DNA of 64,000 nucleotides, taken from positions 186,001 through 250,000 of the forward strand of contig NZ_JACIZD010000001.1 of the NCBI RefSeq assembly GCF_014359565.1. Direction: 5' to 3'. This DNA comes from Immundisolibacter sp. (GTDB taxonomy: Bacteria; Pseudomonadota; Gammaproteobacteria; Immundisolibacterales; Immundisolibacteraceae). The notes under the pieces are model-generated. The model saw only the letters and a program-made list of their open reading frames with translations, was not told the DNA's origin and made no database searches. Below, piece after piece: positions 11,851 through 63,720 of this stretch; position 1 is the first letter of the stretch; every line of letters starts with the position of its first letter. The position numbers were made by a program, and so were the translations under genes.

Positions 11851-12762
11851 GTGATCAGGCAACGCACCCTCAAGAACAGCATCCGCGCCACCGGCGTTGG
11901 CCTGCATACCGGGGCGAGGGTTCAACTGGCCCTGCATCCGGCGCCGGTCGATAGCGGCATTCGTTTCCGGCGTGTCGATCTGAATCCGCCGGTCATCATT
12001 CCGGCGCGCGCCGACACAGTCGGCGACACCCGCCTGTCGACCACGCTGGAATCCGGCGGGGCGCGGGTTGGCACCGTCGAGCACCTGCTGTCGGCCTTGG
12101 CGGGGCTGGGTATCGATAACGCCCTGATCGATGTCGATGCTCCGGAAGTGCCGATCATGGATGGCTCGGCCGGACCGTTCGTGTTCCTGATCCAGTCGGC
12201 GGGCATCTGCGAGCAGGACGCCCCGAAATCCTTCCTGCGGGTGCTGCGATCCATCGAGGCACTCGACGCTGACCGCTGGGTGCGTCTGGACCCCTACGAG
12301 GGTTTTCGGGTCAGCTTCGAGATCGAGTTCAGCCATCCGGCCTTCGACGCCAAGCCGGCGCAGGCCCTGGTCGATTTTTCGTCGACGGCTTTTCTGCGCG
12401 AGATCAGCCGCGCCCGCACCTTCGGTTTCATGCATGAGATCGAGTCCCTGCGCGCACAGGGACTGGTGCAGGGCGGCAGCATGAAGAACGCCGTGGTGGT
12501 CGACGGGACGCGTATCCTGAACGAGGACGGGCTGCGGTATCGGGACGAATTCGTCAAGCACAAGGTGCTGGACGCGATCGGCGACCTGTACCTGCTCGGC
12601 TGCAGCCTGATCGGTGCCTTCTCCGGCTTCAAATCGGGTCATGCGCTCAACAACCGGCTGCTGCGCCGCCTGCTGGCCGACGCCGGCAACTATGAAATCG
12701 TTACCTTCAACTGCGCGCAGGAGTTACCGATTTCCTACATCGAGGCCGCGGCCGCCGCCTGA
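11851..12762 (+). CDS. lpxC: LpxC, UDP-3-O-acyl-GlcNAc deacetylase
   Basis: Zinc amidase performing the committed step of lipid A synthesis. The protein of 303 residues from a GTG start aligns with LpxC from its first residues ([21 protein letters not shown] region), and AGGA lies 11 bases upstream. The reading frame extends further upstream, but those residues are unlike LpxC. Zinc ligands are visible as H78 (VEHLLSAL), H237 and D241 ([10 protein letters not shown]). It closes the dcw cluster, as in E. coli. Confidence 0.97.
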
Positions 12763-56165: not shown

Positions 56166-57260
56166 ATGAATGCACCCTCGCCCAACACCACCCCCGACCG
56201 CTTCGAGCTCGAGCAAATGCGCCGCCTGGTGGCGGACCTGTTCGCCTACCGACCGGCGCTGTACTGGGTCGATTTCATCCTCAGCGCCGGCCTGGGCTAC
56301 GCGCTGGCGCTGGCGTACCTGACCGGCAGCGGGCCGGCGTGGGCCCAGGCGCTGGCCTTCGTCGGTGCCGGCGTGCTGCTGTTCCGGGCCGGCACCTTCA
56401 TGCACGAGATCGTGCACATGAACGGCCAGGTCATGCCCGGCTTCCGGCTGGCCTGGAATCTGTTCTACGGCATCCCGCTGCTGATGCCGTCGCTGATGTA
56501 CCGGAACCACCTGGATCACCACAACGTCAACCGCTTCGGCACGCCGCAGGACGGCGAGTACCTGCCGCTGGGCAGCGCGCCCACCGGCGAGACCATCAAG
56601 TACCTGCTCCAGGTGCCGATCCTGCCGCTGCTGGCGGTGCTGCGCTTCCTGGTGGTGACGCCGCTGTCCTACCTGCATCCGGGCCTGCGACGCTGGGTGA
56701 TGCGCCGCGCCTCGTCCTACGGCTCCAATCCCTACTATCAGCGCCAGGTTCCGCCCGACGAGCCGCTCGCGCTGTGGGCGCTGCAGGAGTGGGCCTGCTT
56801 TGCCTGGCTGGCATTCCTGACCGGCCTGTTCGTGACCGGCGTGCTGCCTTGGGCGCTGCTGGGCAAGGTCTATTTGCTGATGACCTTCGCCATCGGCCTT
56901 AACTGGGTGCGCAATCTGGCCGCTCACAAGTACGTCAACACCGGCGCGCGCATGAGCCTGCAGGGCCAGCTCGAGGACTCGATCAACATCACCGGTCAGA
57001 CCTGGCTGACGGCGCTGCTGTTTCCGATCGGCCTGCGCTACCACGCACTGCATCACCTGTTCCCGGCCATGCCGTATCACTCGATGGGCGAGGCGCACCG
57101 GCGGCTGATGGCGCAGTTGCCGCCCGATGCAGCCTACCGGAAGACCGACTATCCCAACTTTTTCGCCGCCGTTTCGCAGCTGTGGCACGGCGCCCGGCAA
57201 AGCGCCGGCAACGGCGCGCTGATGCAGACCTGGCGCCAGCACGGCGCGCCCGGTGGCTGA
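56166..57260 (+). CDS. Membrane fatty acid desaturase
   Basis: A 364-residue di-iron membrane protein. The three histidine boxes are HEIVH (80-84), HLDHH (115-119) and HALHH (near 293-297). At least four hydrophobic segments surround them. A truncated fatty-acyl desaturase fold without a fused electron-transfer domain. The ATG at 56166 was chosen because similarity begins shortly after; there is only a weak GGG ribosome site. It overlaps the diacylglycerol kinase gene by 8 bases, so it is likely to act on membrane lipid acyl chains. Confidence 0.87.
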   Translation: MNAPSPNTTPDRFELEQMRRLVADLFAYRPALYWVDFILSAGLGYALALAYLTGSGPAWAQALAFVGAGVLLFRAGTFMHEIVHMNGQVMPGFRLAWNLFYGIPLLMPSLMYRNHLDHHNVNRFGTPQDGEYLPLGSAPTGETIKYLLQVPILPLLAVLRFLVVTPLSYLHPGLRRWVMRRASSYGSNPYYQRQVPPDEPLALWALQEWACFAWLAFLTGLFVTGVLPWALLGKVYLLMTFAIGLNWVRNLAAHKYVNTGARMSLQGQLEDSINITGQTWLTALLFPIGLRYHALHHLFPAMPYHSMGEAHRRLMAQLPPDAAYRKTDYPNFFAAVSQLWHGARQSAGNGALMQTWRQHGAPGG

Positions 57261-58206
57261 ACAGGCAAGCGTCGGCGTCATCAGCAATCCGGCCAGCCGG
57301 CATAACGCCCGCGGCGGCCTGGCGGCGATCGAGGCGGTGCTCGCCGGCCAGCCGGCGATTCCCCACCGGCAGGCCCGAACGCCGCAGCAGATCGAGGCCG
57401 CGCTCGCGCAACTGGCCGCCGCCGGCACGAGCTGCGTGGTGCTCAGCGGCGGCGACGGCACCGTGCAGGCGGCGCTGACCGCCCTGTCGCTGCGCTCGCC
57501 GTTCGCCTCGCCACCGAGGCTGCTGGTGCTGGCCAGCGGCACCACCAACATGAGCGCCTACGACCTGGGCAGCCACGGTCGTCCGGAGCGGCTGCTGCGC
57601 CGTCTGCTGACGGGCCGGCTCGCCCTCACGCGCCGGCGCGTGCTGTGCGTGCGGGAGGCCGACGGCACCACCCGCTGCGGATTTTTCTTCACTGCCGGCG
57701 GCCTGCCGCAGGCGGTACGGGATTGCCGCGCGTTTCGCGAAACCAGCGCCCTGCCGGGCATGCGCGGCGCGCTGGGCACGGCCACCTGGATCGGCGGGCG
57801 ACTGCTGCGCCTGCTGGCCGGCCGCGAACCTTTCGAAGCCTTGGCGCTCAGCTATCAGCCGGACGCCGAACCGGTCCGCCGCTGCGAGGCGCTGCTGCTG
57901 CTGGCAAGCACGCATCAGCGCCTCGCCCTCGGGCTGAGGCCGTGGTGGGGCGCCGGCAGCGGCCCGATCAGGACCACGTTGATCAGCCGGCCAGCGCGGC
58001 GCCTGGCGCGGGCGCTGCCGGGACTGCTGCGCGGGCGCCCGCCGGCCTTTGCGAATGCCGCCGCCGGCTACCAAAGCCATGCAGTCAGCACCTTGCATCT
58101 GACGCCGACCGGCGGCTACGCGCTCGACGGCGAGGATTACTTTCCACCCGCCGGCAGTGAGCTGGCGATCAGCGCCGGCCCCGAGTTCGAGTTCCTGCAG
58201 CCATGA
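57253..58206 (+). CDS. Diacylglycerol/sphingosine kinase family lipid kinase
   Basis: A 317-residue protein of the DagK/YegS catalytic family. It has GVISNPASRHNARGG near the N-terminus, the nucleotide loop GGDGTV (66-71), and LASGTTNMSAYDLG. It would phosphorylate diacylglycerol (or another lipid alcohol) with ATP to give phosphatidate. GTG start overlapping the desaturase by 8 bases. It overlaps the next gene by 4 bases. Confidence 0.85.
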   Translation: MAEQASVGVISNPASRHNARGGLAAIEAVLAGQPAIPHRQARTPQQIEAALAQLAAAGTSCVVLSGGDGTVQAALTALSLRSPFASPPRLLVLASGTTNMSAYDLGSHGRPERLLRRLLTGRLALTRRRVLCVREADGTTRCGFFFTAGGLPQAVRDCRAFRETSALPGMRGALGTATWIGGRLLRLLAGREPFEALALSYQPDAEPVRRCEALLLLASTHQRLALGLRPWWGAGSGPIRTTLISRPARRLARALPGLLRGRPPAFANAAAGYQSHAVSTLHLTPTGGYALDGEDYFPPAGSELAISAGPEFEFLQP

Positions 58207-59141
58207 GCGGCCCTGCCGGCGAGGCCCTGCGTGAGGCCATCGACCGCCTGATCGACGCGCCTGCCCCGCCGGGTGCCCAGGCCCTGGCGCAGGCGCTGCG
58301 CGCGCGCCACGGCGCCAGCGTGGCGGCGGTGCTGTTCTACGGCTCGAACTTTCGCCGCGCGGACGACCGCGAGGGCCTGCTGGACCTGTACCTGCTGGTC
58401 GACGACTGCCGCACGGCGCTCGGCAGCAGCCTGTCCGCGCTGGCCTGCCGGCTGCTGCCGCCCAACGTCTATTACCTGGAACTGCCGGTCGATGGCCGCA
58501 CCGTGCGCTGCAAGTACGCGCTGCTGGAGCTGGCCGTGTTCGGCCGCTACATGACCGCCCGGCAAAGCTATTTCTGGGGCCGCTTCGGCCAGGCCAGCGG
58601 CCTGCTGTACGCACGTGACGCAGCAGCCCGCCAGCAGGTGATGCGGGCACTCGCGCAGGCCGTGCTGACCCTGCTCGGCAGTGCGCTGCCGCTGCTGCCG
58701 AATGAAGTCGACGAAGCCGCCTGGTGGCAGACGGCGCTCGCCGCCTGCTACGGCGCGGAGCTGCGCCCGGAGCGGCCAGGGGCGGTCGAGGGACTGGTGC
58801 GCGATCTGGCGCCCTGGCGTGAACGACTCACGCCGCTGGCCGCCGCCTGCCTGGACGGCGTGCAGCGGCAGGACGGGCACTACCGCATAACGCTGGCGCC
58901 CGGCCGGCGCTGCCTCGGGCGCCTGGGCTGGACAGTCCGCCGCCTGCTCGGCAAGACGCTGAACGTGGCGCGCCTGGTCAAGGCCGCGTTCACCTTCGCC
59001 GGCGGCGCCGACTACCTGCTGTGGAAGGTCGAGCGCCACTCCGGCGTGCGCATCGAGCCAACGCCCTTGCTGCGCCGCCACCCGCTGCTGGGCATCTGGG
59101 GCGTGGCCTGGCGGCTGTGGCGACGGGGTGGCTTCAGATAG
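58203..59141 (+). CDS. Tam41-like nucleotidyltransferase (candidate CDP-DAG synthase)
   Basis: A 312-residue protein that I do not recognise as a standard bacterial family. Motif order resembles the mitochondrial CDP-diacylglycerol synthase Tam41/Mmp37: YGSNFR (46-51), a D-x5-D-D acidic strand (DLYLLVDD, 61-68), NVYYLE (88-93), KYALLEL (104-110) and YFWGRFGQ (123-130), then helices. Y-G-S plus acidic pair is also the nucleotidyltransferase core. No membrane segment, so it would act at the membrane surface. Context (lipid kinase upstream, CDP-alcohol phosphotransferase nearby) supports making CDP-DAG from phosphatidate. This is inference. Confidence 0.6.
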   Translation: MSGPAGEALREAIDRLIDAPAPPGAQALAQALRARHGASVAAVLFYGSNFRRADDREGLLDLYLLVDDCRTALGSSLSALACRLLPPNVYYLELPVDGRTVRCKYALLELAVFGRYMTARQSYFWGRFGQASGLLYARDAAARQQVMRALAQAVLTLLGSALPLLPNEVDEAAWWQTALAACYGAELRPERPGAVEGLVRDLAPWRERLTPLAAACLDGVQRQDGHYRITLAPGRRCLGRLGWTVRRLLGKTLNVARLVKAAFTFAGGADYLLWKVERHSGVRIEPTPLLRRHPLLGIWGVAWRLWRRGGFR

Positions 59142-59180
59142 CGCCGGGCGACCTGCGCGCGGGCGCAGTCATCCGGTCCG

Positions 59181-59248
59181 GAAGATTCGCGGCGAGGGCG
59201 CCGCTCCCACCGCAGGTGTAGAAGGCCCGCCCTCGGACCGAAGATCGT
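59181..59248. repeat. Dispersed two-unit inverted repeat, copy D
   Basis: A minus-oriented unit (GAAGATTCGCGGCGAGGGCG ending CTCCCAC, 59181-59210) is followed by a plus-oriented unit (TGTAGAAGGCCCGCCCTCGG, from 59217) with their outer ends facing opposite to copies A and B. It fills the 137-base gap between the convergent Tam41-like and CDP-alcohol genes. Confidence 0.8.
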
Positions 59249-59278
59249 CGACGCAAGCCCCGGCCGAACACGGACACC

Positions 59279-60436
59279 TCAGCTGGCAAACCAGCGCACG
59301 GCGCGGCTGCCGGTGGGGATTTCACGCCCGACCTGCTCCAGCCACGACACCAGCGGGCCGCGTTGCCGTGCAACGATCCCCTGAGCGACCCGCACCCACA
59401 GCAGCAGTGTCGACAGCACCGTCCAGCCGGCCACCAGCCACAGGCCCAGCGCCGGCTGGCCGACCAGGGCGCACAGCGTCAGCATCAGCAGGTTCGGATT
59501 GCGCCGGGCGGTGATCAGGCGGTTGTAGGAGTCAAACGGCCGCCACACGAACAGCGAGAACCTGGCGCAGAAGCCCTGGAAGCCGCCCTCGGCCAGGCGC
59601 CCGCCGATGTAAGCTGCCACGATCACCCAGATCAGCGTCTGCGTCGGCACGCTGCCCTCGGGCAGGCCCAGCGCCCAGGCGGCGTACCAGAACGGCGGAT
59701 GGATCAGGTCGATACCGTGGTCCAGGATGTCGCCAAAACGGGTGGACTTGACCGTCACCCGCGCCAGCTTGCCGTCGACCGTGTCCAGAAAGGTCATCAG
59801 CCAGGCGCACACCAGGCCCGGCAGCCACCAGCCGCCCCAGAAGGCAAGGCCGGCGGCAACGGTCAGCGCCAGGCCGGTCAGCGTCACCTGATTGGGCGTG
59901 ATGCCGCGCCGGGCACAAAAACCGGTCGCCGCCCGCGCCGGCGCCGGCCACCACCACTTGGTGATGAAATCGGTGACGCCCTTGTAGGCGGTGCCGAACA
60001 GGCGCCGCTCCAGGTCGGTCTGCTCGGCGGGCGTAACGTGCAGCACGTAGGGCGTCGAAACCTTGCGCAGCTTCTTCTGATAGGCGGTGGTCAACGTAGT
60101 GGGGAGCTCGACCACATAGCCGTCGGGCGGCTGCTGTCCGGTCAGCACGGCCTGCGCACGCGTCGCACCGCCCACCGGTGCGTGCAGCGCCACCAGCGGG
60201 CCGTCATCGCTCGCGCGCAGCGCCACGCCGGGCGCATCGACCAGCGCCGCGATTACCCGCTCGTCGAACAGATAATCAGCGCGCAGGCACAGCACGCTGC
60301 GCTGCTGCGGCGGCGCGGCCCCGTCATCCAGCACCTCGATGCCGAGCTTGCCCAGCACGCGCCGCAGGCGTTCGCGCCCGCCAAGGCCCCACAGACGAAC
60401 CGGCGCTTCGCCGGCAAGATACGCGACCGGTTTCAC
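59279..60436 (-). CDS. CDP-alcohol phosphotransferase with a degenerate N-terminal domain
   Basis: A 385-residue membrane protein. The CDP-OH-P motif D-x2-D-G-x2-A-R-x8-G-x3-D-x3-D is complete (D218, D221, G222, A225, R226, G235, D239, D243). Several hydrophobic segments follow. Residues 1-150 form a soluble domain reminiscent of the nucleotidyltransferase half of bifunctional inositol-phosphate transferases, but without the usual G-x-G-T-R motif. The enzyme would make a phospholipid from CDP-DAG and an alcohol or from a CDP-alcohol. Substrate unknown. It is convergent to the Tam41-like operon and divergent from the metallophosphoesterase gene. Confidence 0.8.
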   Translation of the reverse strand: MKPVAYLAGEAPVRLWGLGGRERLRRVLGKLGIEVLDDGAAPPQQRSVLCLRADYLFDERVIAALVDAPGVALRASDDGPLVALHAPVGGATRAQAVLTGQQPPDGYVVELPTTLTTAYQKKLRKVSTPYVLHVTPAEQTDLERRLFGTAYKGVTDFITKWWWPAPARAATGFCARRGITPNQVTLTGLALTVAAGLAFWGGWWLPGLVCAWLMTFLDTVDGKLARVTVKSTRFGDILDHGIDLIHPPFWYAAWALGLPEGSVPTQTLIWVIVAAYIGGRLAEGGFQGFCARFSLFVWRPFDSYNRLITARRNPNLLMLTLCALVGQPALGLWLVAGWTVLSTLLLWVRVAQGIVARQRGPLVSWLEQVGREIPTGSRAVRWFAS

Positions 60437-60537
60437 TTTTCAGACCCACTCATCGGCTGGCAAAAAAGCGTGCAATCGTATATCAAGCCTGCGCCGCCAT
60501 CCGCGCGCCGCGCCCGCCTTCAGGCCACCCTGCTTTC

Positions 60538-61476
60538 GTGTCCAGCATCAAACCGAACGAGCCGAACCCCGCCAACGCCCCGCCGAGCGAATGGGCGCTG
60601 GCGCATTTGTCGGACCTGCACCTGACCGATCCGCTGGCAGACGCGGACGCGCCGCTGGCGATCAAGCAGCGCCTGGGTCGCGCCTCCTGGCGTCGCCGCC
60701 GCAGCCACGTCCATCAGCCGGCGCTGCTGGCCGCCCTGGCGGCAGACCTGCACGCCCAGGCACCGCGCCAGATCGCCATCAGCGGCGATCTGGTGCAGAT
60801 CGGGCTGCGGCGCGAGTTCGAGCAGGCCGCCGACTGGCTGGCCGGCTTTGCGCCGCCGGCGCGCCTGCTGCTGGTGCCGGGCAACCACGAGGCCTACGTG
60901 GCCAACACCTGGCAGGCCGGCCGCGAATGCTGGCGCCCCTACCTGCCGGGCCCAGCCGACGGCGAACCGTGGCTGCAGCGTCGCGACTGGCTGCTGCTGA
61001 TCGGCCTGTCGAGCGCCGTGCCGAGCTGGCCTGGCCTGGCCACCGGCACGCTCGGCGGGGCGCAGATCGCCGCCCTGGACGCGGCGCTGCAAGCGGGCGC
61101 CGACGAAGGGCTGTTTCGGGTCATCGTCGTCCACCATCCACCGGCGGCCGGCGTGGTCGGCTGGCGCAAGCGCCTGACCGATCATCGCCAGTTCGCGCAG
61201 GTCATCGCGCGCCGCGGCGCCGGGGTGATCCTGCACGGCCACGCCCACCGGGCGACGCTGTCACACCTGCCCGGTCCGACCGGCCCGGTGGCGGTGGTCG
61301 GCGCGCCGTCGGCTTCGGCACTCGACCAACGCCCCGACCGCATGGCCGGCTACAACCTGCTGCGCATCCGGCCAGCCGCGCACGCCTGGCAGCTGCGCCT
61401 GAGCCGGCGCGTCTTCAGGCCGCAGACGCGGGACTTCGACTGGCAGGAACACCACGACCTGACCAGCCACGGCTGA
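60538..61476 (+). CDS. Calcineurin-like metallophosphoesterase
   Basis: A 312-residue di-metal phosphoesterase. Metal ligands: D-x-H (SDLHL, 26-28), GD (ISGDLVQIG), GNHE (VPGNHEAY), H in VVHHPP and GHAH (LHGHAH). The start is a GTG at 60538, since no ATG precedes the domain; it is uncertain. No signal peptide. The role may be dephosphorylation of a lipid or nucleotide intermediate, as suggested by divergence from the CDP-alcohol gene; otherwise unknown. Confidence 0.8.
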   Translation: MSSIKPNEPNPANAPPSEWALAHLSDLHLTDPLADADAPLAIKQRLGRASWRRRRSHVHQPALLAALAADLHAQAPRQIAISGDLVQIGLRREFEQAADWLAGFAPPARLLLVPGNHEAYVANTWQAGRECWRPYLPGPADGEPWLQRRDWLLLIGLSSAVPSWPGLATGTLGGAQIAALDAALQAGADEGLFRVIVVHHPPAAGVVGWRKRLTDHRQFAQVIARRGAGVILHGHAHRATLSHLPGPTGPVAVVGAPSASALDQRPDRMAGYNLLRIRPAAHAWQLRLSRRVFRPQTRDFDWQEHHDLTSHG

Positions 61477-61585: not shown

Positions 61586-62647
61586 CTATCGCAAGCGACG
61601 CAACAGGCGCCCGGCAAACAGCAGGATCAGCGTCGGCAGGGCCAGCGCCGTCAGCGGCGCCGGCAGGTGCAGCAGCAGACCCAGGTAACCGAGCGTCTGG
61701 GTGACGAAATACAGCCCGATGCCGGCCACCGTGCCGGCCAGCACGCGGCGACTGAGCGTGCTCGAGCGGTTGCTGCCCAGCACCAGCGGGATGGCCACCA
61801 GCATCATGGCCAGCGTCACCAGCGGTTGTGCCAGCTGCTGCCACAGGCGCAGCTCTTCCTGCGGCACCTGCTCGTTACGGGCCCGCAGATCGCGCACGTA
61901 GAAATACAGGTCGATCGGCGACAGGGCTTGCGGCGGCACCACCAGCACGCCCAGCTGCTGGGCATCCAGGAACGAGTCCCAGTCCAGCTGCGCCAGCTGC
62001 TGCGCGCGCGCCGGCGGCGGCTCGAACTGCTTGACCACCACGTCCTGGAGCCGCCACACGCGGTCCTGCTCCAGACTCGCGCGCTCGGCATGCAGATAGC
62101 GCCGCAGACGCCCGGCGTCATCAAAGTCATACACCGTCACATCGGACGGGGTGCGCCCGCGCAGCATGCGCCCGACGTTCAGGAAACTGCGCCCGTCGCG
62201 CGACCAGAAGCCGCCGCGAAAATCCACCGACACATCCTCGGCCAGCGCCGCGGCGCGCATGCGCTCGGCGCGCATCTCCAGTGCCGGCGCCACGAATTGG
62301 GCCATCAGCAGCATCAGCATCAACAGCGTCAGGCCGGGCGCCAGCACCATGCCGATCAGCCGCCGCAGCGGCAGGCCGGCGGCGCGCATGGCCAGGATCT
62401 CGTTGCCGTCCGCGAGCAGGCCCAGCGGCACCAGCGTGCCCAGCAGGGCGATCACCGGCGTGGCATCCAGCAGCCGGCGCGGCAACATCATCAGCACGTA
62501 CAGGAATGCGTCGACCAACGTGTAGGCGCCCTCGACGTCGTCGAGCTGCTGGATCAGCTCGATGAAACTGAACAGCGCCACGAACACCAGCGCCACCAGC
62601 AGGTAGCCCTGCGCCATGGCGCGGGCGATGTAACGGGCGAGAATCAT
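61586..62647 (-). CDS. lptG: LptG, LPS export permease
   Basis: Inner-membrane permease (353 residues) of the LptB2FG complex that extracts LPS for transport. Six hydrophobic segments in two groups of three (about 11-115 and 270-350) flank a periplasmic beta-jellyroll domain. Start MILARYIARAM overlaps the lptF stop by 4 bases. It resembles lptG more than lptF by sequence and order. Confidence 0.94.
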   Translation of the reverse strand: MILARYIARAMAQGYLLVALVFVALFSFIELIQQLDDVEGAYTLVDAFLYVLMMLPRRLLDATPVIALLGTLVPLGLLADGNEILAMRAAGLPLRRLIGMVLAPGLTLLMLMLLMAQFVAPALEMRAERMRAAALAEDVSVDFRGGFWSRDGRSFLNVGRMLRGRTPSDVTVYDFDDAGRLRRYLHAERASLEQDRVWRLQDVVVKQFEPPPARAQQLAQLDWDSFLDAQQLGVLVVPPQALSPIDLYFYVRDLRARNEQVPQEELRLWQQLAQPLVTLAMMLVAIPLVLGSNRSSTLSRRVLAGTVAGIGLYFVTQTLGYLGLLLHLPAPLTALALPTLILLFAGRLLRRLR

Positions 62648-63720
62648 CGGTGGCGGCGACGCCGCCACTGTGGCAGCACGATCAGCACGGCCAGCACCAC
62701 GCAGCCGAGCAGGGGAACGAGCAACACCCCGGGCCAGGGCGCCAGCTCGCCGTTCTCCACCGCATCCATCACCACCGCCAGCAGGTTGTAGTACACGATG
62801 CAGCCGAGCAGGCCGACCGTCAGCTTGCTGGAGCGGCTGCGCCGCGGCGGCATGCGGCTGATCGGCACGCCCAGCAGGCCCAGCAGGACGGTGGAGAACG
62901 GCGCGGCGATGCGCCACTGCAGCTCGGCCGTGTCCTTCGGATCCGCGGACGCCGCCAGCTCGCCGTTCGCGGTGGCCTTGCGGCGCTTGCGCACGATGGC
63001 CTGCTCCTCGTCCAGGCGCAGCGCCAGCGTGCGGTAGCTGATGATCATGTCGCTGCCCAGGCTGTCGCCCGTGCCCGGATCGAGCTGGTAGTAGCGGCCG
63101 TCGAGGAATTCCACGACCTGCCGCCCGTCGGAGTCGGTGAGCTGGCGTGCCCGCTGGGCGAACACCACCCCATCGGCCTGGCCGCCGCTGTCGGCGTGGG
63201 TGAACACCTGCAGCCGCTCGTCACCGTCGGCCGCTTCGCTGAACATCACCAGACCGCCGGTGAAGTCGGCATAGAACCGGCCCGGCGGCAGGCGCGTCAG
63301 GTCGAAGCGGCGCTCGGCGCTGGCCTCCAGCCGGTAGACGTTCTGATACAGCTGCGGGCGCACCACCAGCGATGCGACTGCCACTACCGCCGCCACCGGC
63401 AGCGCCAGCCACAGCACGGCCTGGAACAACCAGCGTTCGCCGATGCCGCAGGCTGCCAGGGCGGTGGTCTCCTGATCGCGCTGCAGGCGCCCCAGGCCGA
63501 GCGCCACCGACAGCATCAGCGCCATCGGCACGATGGCGTCCAGGCTGATGAACAGCTTCAGCCCGATCAACACCGCCGCCAGGCTGCCGGGCAGTGCGCC
63601 GCTGGCCGCCTCGCCCAGAAAGCGCGCCGAGCTGTAACCGGTAAAAACCAGCAGCAGGCTGCCGCACACCACCGCAAACGGGCTCGCCAGCTCGCGCAGC
63701 AGGTAGCGTCTGAGGATCAT
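62644..63720 (-). CDS. lptF: LptF, LPS export permease
   Basis: The partner permease of LptG (358 residues), with the same topology. The start MILRRYLLRELASPF is canonical, and RLQRDQETTALAACG is the LptF conserved loop that contacts LptB. Four-base overlap with lptG. A TGC TAGACT promoter lies about 47 bases upstream. Confidence 0.95.
   Translation of the reverse strand: MILRRYLLRELASPFAVVCGSLLLVFTGYSSARFLGEAASGALPGSLAAVLIGLKLFISLDAIVPMALMLSVALGLGRLQRDQETTALAACGIGERWLFQAVLWLALPVAAVVAVASLVVRPQLYQNVYRLEASAERRFDLTRLPPGRFYADFTGGLVMFSEAADGDERLQVFTHADSGGQADGVVFAQRARQLTDSDGRQVVEFLDGRYYQLDPGTGDSLGSDMIISYRTLALRLDEEQAIVRKRRKATANGELAASADPKDTAELQWRIAAPFSTVLLGLLGVPISRMPPRRSRSSKLTVGLLGCIVYYNLLAVVMDAVENGELAPWPGVLLVPLLGCVVLAVLIVLPQWRRRRHR

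Follow-up and report, generated by a model that had tools for sequence, protein, structure and literature searches.

RESULTS

A rearranged Caulobacter-type phosphosphingolipid cluster in Immundisolibacter

The window analysed here, a 64,000-nucleotide stretch of an Immundisolibacter genome, almost certainly contains the left half of a Caulobacter-type phosphosphingolipid cluster (ceramide phosphoglycerate type) in rearranged form. Clusters of this known type produce phosphate-bearing sphingolipids of the outer membrane. The pathway was described recently, and the locus is an ordinary example of it that shows the end less well understood. Immundisolibacter is known for the breakdown of polycyclic aromatic hydrocarbons, and we show genes of a ceramide phosphoglycerate-type pathway in this gammaproteobacterial genus. 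Taken as a whole, the locus is probably best explained as a cluster for phosphosphingolipid synthesis and export that includes a CDP-ceramide step carried out by a Tam41-like protein; gene content, gene order, predicted fold and co-occurrence are what is shown here.

As originally predicted, three overlapping genes lie on the plus strand. An FA_desaturase-family membrane protein (56166–57260; PF00487, 7e-28; His boxes HEIVH, HLDHH and HALHH) overlaps by 8 nt a CpgB-type lipid kinase, a predicted ceramide kinase (57253–58206; PF00781/DAGK_cat, 2.6e-12; GGDGT), which in turn overlaps by 4 nt (ATGA) a Tam41-fold nucleotidyltransferase of 312 amino acids (58203–59141), assigned as a CpgC homologue by structure model, profile and gene place. 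A CpgA-type CDP-alcohol phosphotransferase (59279–60436, minus strand; PF01066/CDP-OH_P_transf, 1e-9) converges on them, and a motif search of its product recovered the complete active-site motif claimed for it, D-x2-D-G-x2-A-R-x8-G-x3-D-x3-D. The gene after it, already taken for a metallophosphoesterase, encodes a calcineurin-like phosphoesterase of the CC_1158 type (60538–61476, plus strand; PF00149/Metallophos, 2.1e-10; GNHE and GHAH), which ends at 61476 and for which the GTG at 60538 is a guessed start. Two minus-strand genes follow, encoding an LptG-type permease (61586–62704; TIGR04408, 321.8 bits with a cut-off of 240; PF03739) and an LptF-type permease (62644–63720; TIGR04407, 277.4 bits with a cut-off of 230; PF03739).

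The model of the CpgA-type protein (pLDDT 89.6) finds its best PDB match in AF2299, which it follows from end to end, N-terminal domain included; AF2299 and the PIP synthases are the nearest known CDP-alcohol phosphotransferases. The lipid kinase has the DAGK_cat domain and GGDGT, is only about 28–31% identical to the copies in loci L128 and L129 and, searched alone, had no match in the PDB. The desaturase gene also directly precedes cpgB in seven Wenzhouxiangella-type loci (L016, L017, L018, L024, L036, L045 and L051), and its product may be a desaturase or hydroxylase acting on ceramide.

The ceramide genes begin right after the window (about C1:250000–257730; locus L085, at whose base 1001 the window ends). 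They run in the order CpgD-like nucleotidyltransferase, CC_1153-like protein, ceramide synthase, HIT protein, acyl-AMP ligase, CerR-like protein, ACP and serine palmitoyltransferase, so that spt, cerS, cerR, acpR and aasR all lie within 9 kb beyond the window. The serine palmitoyltransferase scores 604 bits with NF047599 (cut-off 500), the fatty acyl-AMP ligase scores 801 bits (curated cut-off 600), and the GNAT ceramide synthase is 64% identical to the copy in locus L009; the functions of cerR and acpR were assigned by family and gene place. A long open reading frame (L085 8195–11029) overlaps and then runs past the serine palmitoyltransferase gene; by eye it seems to fuse a glycosyltransferase-like part with a mitochondrial-fission-ELM1-like part, and relatives carry comparable genes (cluster 4).

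Correspondence with the Caulobacter genes and conservation in relatives

The Caulobacter cluster CC_1165–CC_1152 comprises the ceramide genes CC_1165–CC_1162 (spt being CC_1162) and CC_1154, the headgroup genes CC_1161 (cpgC), CC_1160 (cpgB), CC_1159 (cpgA), CC_1158, CC_1153 and CC_1152 (cpgD), and also CC_1157 and LptF2/LptG2 (CC_1156 and CC_1155) (PMC11324152, PMC12275187). All 14 have counterparts here within about 16 kb, among them cpgA–D, spt, cerS, cerR, acpR, aasR and lptF2/G2. The comparison passes through locus L128 (genome G297), which carries aasR, cerR, acpR, spt, cpgC, cpgB, cpgA, a CC_1158-like gene, HIT, two Lpt permease genes (identified by eye), cerS, a CC_1153-like gene and cpgD in the published CC_1165–CC_1152 order, each gene matching the window cluster. 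In L128, the Tam41-like gene occupies the cpgC place, the kinase gene the cpgB place, the CDP-alcohol phosphotransferase gene the cpgA place and the phosphoesterase gene that of CC_1158; in L129, the Tam41-like and kinase genes likewise stand at the CC_1161/CpgC and CC_1160/CpgB places. The six headgroup counterparts (cpgA, cpgB, cpgC, cpgD, CC_1153 and CC_1158) are all present, matched via L128 rather than against named Caulobacter sequences, and the Tam41-like protein is likened to CpgC (CCNA_01219/CC_1161) by its partner genes and its place in the gene order, via L128 and L129, rather than by alignment. The CpgA-, CpgD-, serine palmitoyltransferase- and ceramide synthase-type proteins are 45–56% identical to those of L128, and the CpgC-type protein 39%. 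In contrast to Caulobacter, order and strands are rearranged here, a desaturase gene precedes cpgB, and no second LptFG pair was found in the genome.

At least 80 relatives of the Tam41-like protein were found, in many Proteobacteria as well as in other phyla; the closest is encoded on an Immundisolibacter contig (L001; 75% identity). Dozens of loci in genomes of Alpha-, Gamma- and Deltaproteobacteria type hold the same genes as a cluster, with the recurrent order phosphoesterase (minus), CDP-alcohol phosphotransferase (plus), kinase (plus) and Tam41-like protein (plus); the phosphoesterase gene adjoins cpgA, and in 66 of the 80 loci the gene directly before that of the Tam41-like protein encodes the lipid kinase. 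Many of these loci add serine palmitoyltransferase, ACP, CerR-like protein, acyl-AMP ligase and GNAT ceramide synthase. Conservation of the gene set in related genomes, a check that the original prediction had named, is therefore largely borne out, although the genes lie further apart in some genomes (family f54, Sphingomonadaceae-like). The prediction had also set the CDP-alcohol phosphotransferase gene outside the operon of its neighbours; it does lie on the opposite strand, yet it belongs to the same set and stands in line as cpgA-cpgB-cpgC in relatives. In the Wenzhouxiangella-type loci L016, L017 and L018, an ABC transporter-like gene and conserved unnamed genes lie 3' of cpgC, and no Lpt genes were found near cpgC.

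Predicted Tam41 fold of the CpgC-type protein

The product of 58203–59141 found no family or relative when searched against Pfam, NCBIfam and, as a single sequence, PDB sequences; the Pfam Tam41 model PF09139 had no match in the Immundisolibacter genome, nor did it match in the control genomes, which makes its silence here uninformative. A profile of its relatives matched mitochondrial Tam41 (6ig2) among PDB sequences with an E-value of 3e-6. The AlphaFold2 model, built from 72 aligned relatives, has a pLDDT of 92.2 and a pTM of 0.90. Its top five Foldseek matches are Tam41 chains (E about 5e-9 to 1e-8), followed by aminoglycoside nucleotidyltransferases, and VIA-align gives a Z score of 17.6 to 7ecd, the Firmicutes Tam41 with CTP-Mg (rmsd 3.1 over 223 residues), 17.6 to 6ig4 and 17.2 to 6ig2, dropping to 7.8 for the next family. 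The protein is thus predicted to share its fold with Tam41/TAMM41 and Firmicutes Tam41 (6ig2, 6ig4 and 7ecd) along some 220 residues that extend past the NTase core; the match does not reach into the C-terminal part, past about residue 262. A viral structure library returned weak general nucleotidyltransferases at most. The structure prediction that had been proposed as a check accordingly upholds the resemblance to Tam41, whose chains are the only strong structural relatives.

The motifs from which that resemblance was first read are present in the order given, namely YGS (46–48), D61 with D67 and D68, NVYYLE (88–93), KYALLEL (104–110) and YFWGRFGQ (123–130). No variation is seen among the 72 relatives at D61, NVYYLE, K104, W125, R127 and Q130, and hardly any at YGS. 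The acidic D-x5-DD strand holds in its letters and in the invariant D61, but conservation does not extend to D67 and D68. No relative has an acid at position 63, and another invariant acid, E93, lies on a neighbouring strand. Of the three acidic residues of the NTase site, Tam41 retains a single one (PMC11646218). With D61 as its sole conserved acid at the DxD site, the present family would fit that pattern, although E93 is a further invariant acid close by. The window protein shares with Tam41 the YGS, one acid, VYY, KY, RF..P, SY..[DE].R and E-x-P motifs at 15–18% identity. By comparison, the Tam41 alignment shows no clear equivalent of the family-specific invariant residues N88, E93, W125 and Q130, so that substrate and chemistry may differ; E93, aligned to no acid in Tam41, may help to bind metal as a second ligand or may contact the substrate. 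The window protein also differs from Tam41 in being tied to sphingolipid genes.

Co-occurrence with ceramide synthesis genes

We counted the genes in 397 Pseudomonadota genomes, with serine palmitoyltransferase scored at E ≤ 1e-70. The Tam41-like gene was found in 30 genomes (23 genera), ceramide synthase in 48 and serine palmitoyltransferase in 39. Ceramide synthase was present in all 30 genomes with the Tam41-like gene and serine palmitoyltransferase in 29 of them, as compared with 18 and 10 of the other 367 (Fisher p about 6e-33 and 2e-34, respectively, kinship being ignored). One or the other lies within 15 kb of the Tam41-like gene in 20 of the 30 genomes. CdsA is present in all 30, as well as in the Immundisolibacter genome itself. 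Tracking ceramide synthesis with CdsA always present, the gene shows no sign of replacing CdsA.

DISCUSSION

In Caulobacter, the conversion of ceramide-1-phosphate to ceramide phosphoglycerate (CPG) is the open step of the pathway (PMC12275187, PMC13228409). Ceramide kinase activity has been proven for CpgB (PMC10331486); CpgC is needed for this step by a mechanism called unidentified in 2025 (PMC12275187) and 2026 (PMC13228409); and CpgA is needed for the second glycerate rather than the first, neither CpgA nor CpgD being required for CPG (PMC11324152, PMC12275187). By analogy with this genetics and biochemistry, ceramide would be made by the acyl-AMP ligase, ACP, serine palmitoyltransferase, CerR and ceramide synthase encoded just beyond the window, and the product of 57253–58206, originally read as a diacylglycerol kinase, probably acts as a ceramide kinase of the CpgB type, yielding ceramide-1-phosphate. 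The Tam41-like protein encoded at 58203 would next use CTP to load CMP onto ceramide-1-phosphate, with CDP-ceramide and pyrophosphate as products, and a headgroup (glycerate or a relative) would later displace CMP. A second headgroup unit could be added by the CpgA-type phosphotransferase with CDP-glycerate from the CpgD-type enzyme as donor, and the LptF/LptG-type permeases may help the lipid outward. The Tam41-like protein is probably CpgC, and judging from the fold, which is what suggests use of CTP and a CDP-ceramide product, we lean slightly towards its being a CTP:ceramide-1-phosphate cytidylyltransferase. Whether CpgC proteins in general are Tam41 family members specialised for sphingolipids and make CDP-ceramide, with headgroups attached through CDP-lipid chemistry as in glycerophospholipids, appears evenly balanced.

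The original prediction had proposed a glycerophospholipid route from diacylglycerol through phosphatidate to CDP-DAG, complete without CdsA. The kinase, the CTP-using enzyme and the CDP-alcohol phosphotransferase do form a conserved set, but the lipid on which they act is most likely ceramide, not diacylglycerol. A CDP-DAG synthase replacing or backing up CdsA would suit the Tam41 fold, as the characterised Tam41 enzymes, including a bacterial one, make CDP-DAG (PMC11646218), and would suit the adjoining lipid kinase gene. Such a role is nevertheless improbable, given that CdsA accompanies the gene in all 30 genomes sampled with it, that the gene follows ceramide synthase and serine palmitoyltransferase, often at close range, and that Caulobacter mutants of the corresponding gene lose ceramide phosphoglycerate (PMC11324152). 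The claim of a full phospholipid route without CdsA is therefore wrong or at least unsupported, the gene tracking ceramide genes that begin outside the window, and CdsA replacement was rejected as the main reading.

That CpgC has a Tam41 fold and yet performs another transfer, placing phosphoglycerate or glycerate directly onto ceramide-1-phosphate or activating the headgroup instead of the lipid, seems unlikely, though less so than a CDP-DAG synthase. Direct glycerate attachment is an earlier proposal (cited in PMC11324152), CPG formation requires CpgC and neither CpgA nor CpgD, and the family's invariant residues absent from Tam41 would fit a different chemistry; against this, Tam41 relatives of known function move CMP to a lipid phosphate, and direct condensation is energetically unfavourable (PMC11324152). 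A CDP-ceramide route also needs a finishing phosphotransferase; since CpgA is dispensable for CPG in Caulobacter and no other finishing enzyme is known, CpgC may act otherwise. Three other CDP-alcohol phosphotransferase genes are present in the Immundisolibacter genome, one of which might supply the finishing enzyme. The opposite strand of the phosphotransferase and LptFG genes and an order unlike that of Caulobacter could suggest unrelated neighbours brought together by chance, a reading so improbable in view of the recurrence of the gene set across dozens of loci that it was rejected.

The cluster type and the idea of NDP-activated ceramide are already known: CC_1161 carries an InterPro CDP-DAG synthase domain, and such activation was floated in 2024 (PMC11324152). 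In the literature searched, we found no report of CDP-ceramide and no paper on Tam41 together with proteobacteria and ceramide. With a confident Tam41 fold, conserved residues and co-occurrence with ceramide genes, the CpgC step is reducible to one simple assay, CTP plus ceramide-1-phosphate. If CDP-ceramide formation is true, bacterial sphingolipid headgroups would be attached via an activated intermediate, in parallel to glycerophospholipids.

In a separate observation on lipopolysaccharide genes, LpxC had no match in 20 of the 30 genomes with CpgC and in 9 of 10 with serine palmitoyltransferase only, and was present in all 15 other gammaproteobacteria sampled. One gammaproteobacterial genome (G102; single contig, 100% complete; L121) has the CpgC cluster and no LpxC match, and possibly belongs to an LPS-free gammaproteobacterium dependent on phosphosphingolipids. 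In the Immundisolibacter genome, lpxC is present at about 11860–12675 of the window (G000:C1:197860–198675). Its only LptF/LptG pair (61586–63720) sits inside the sphingolipid cluster, and this single pair may work in the export of LPS as well as of sphingolipids, or may simply be the LPS pair.
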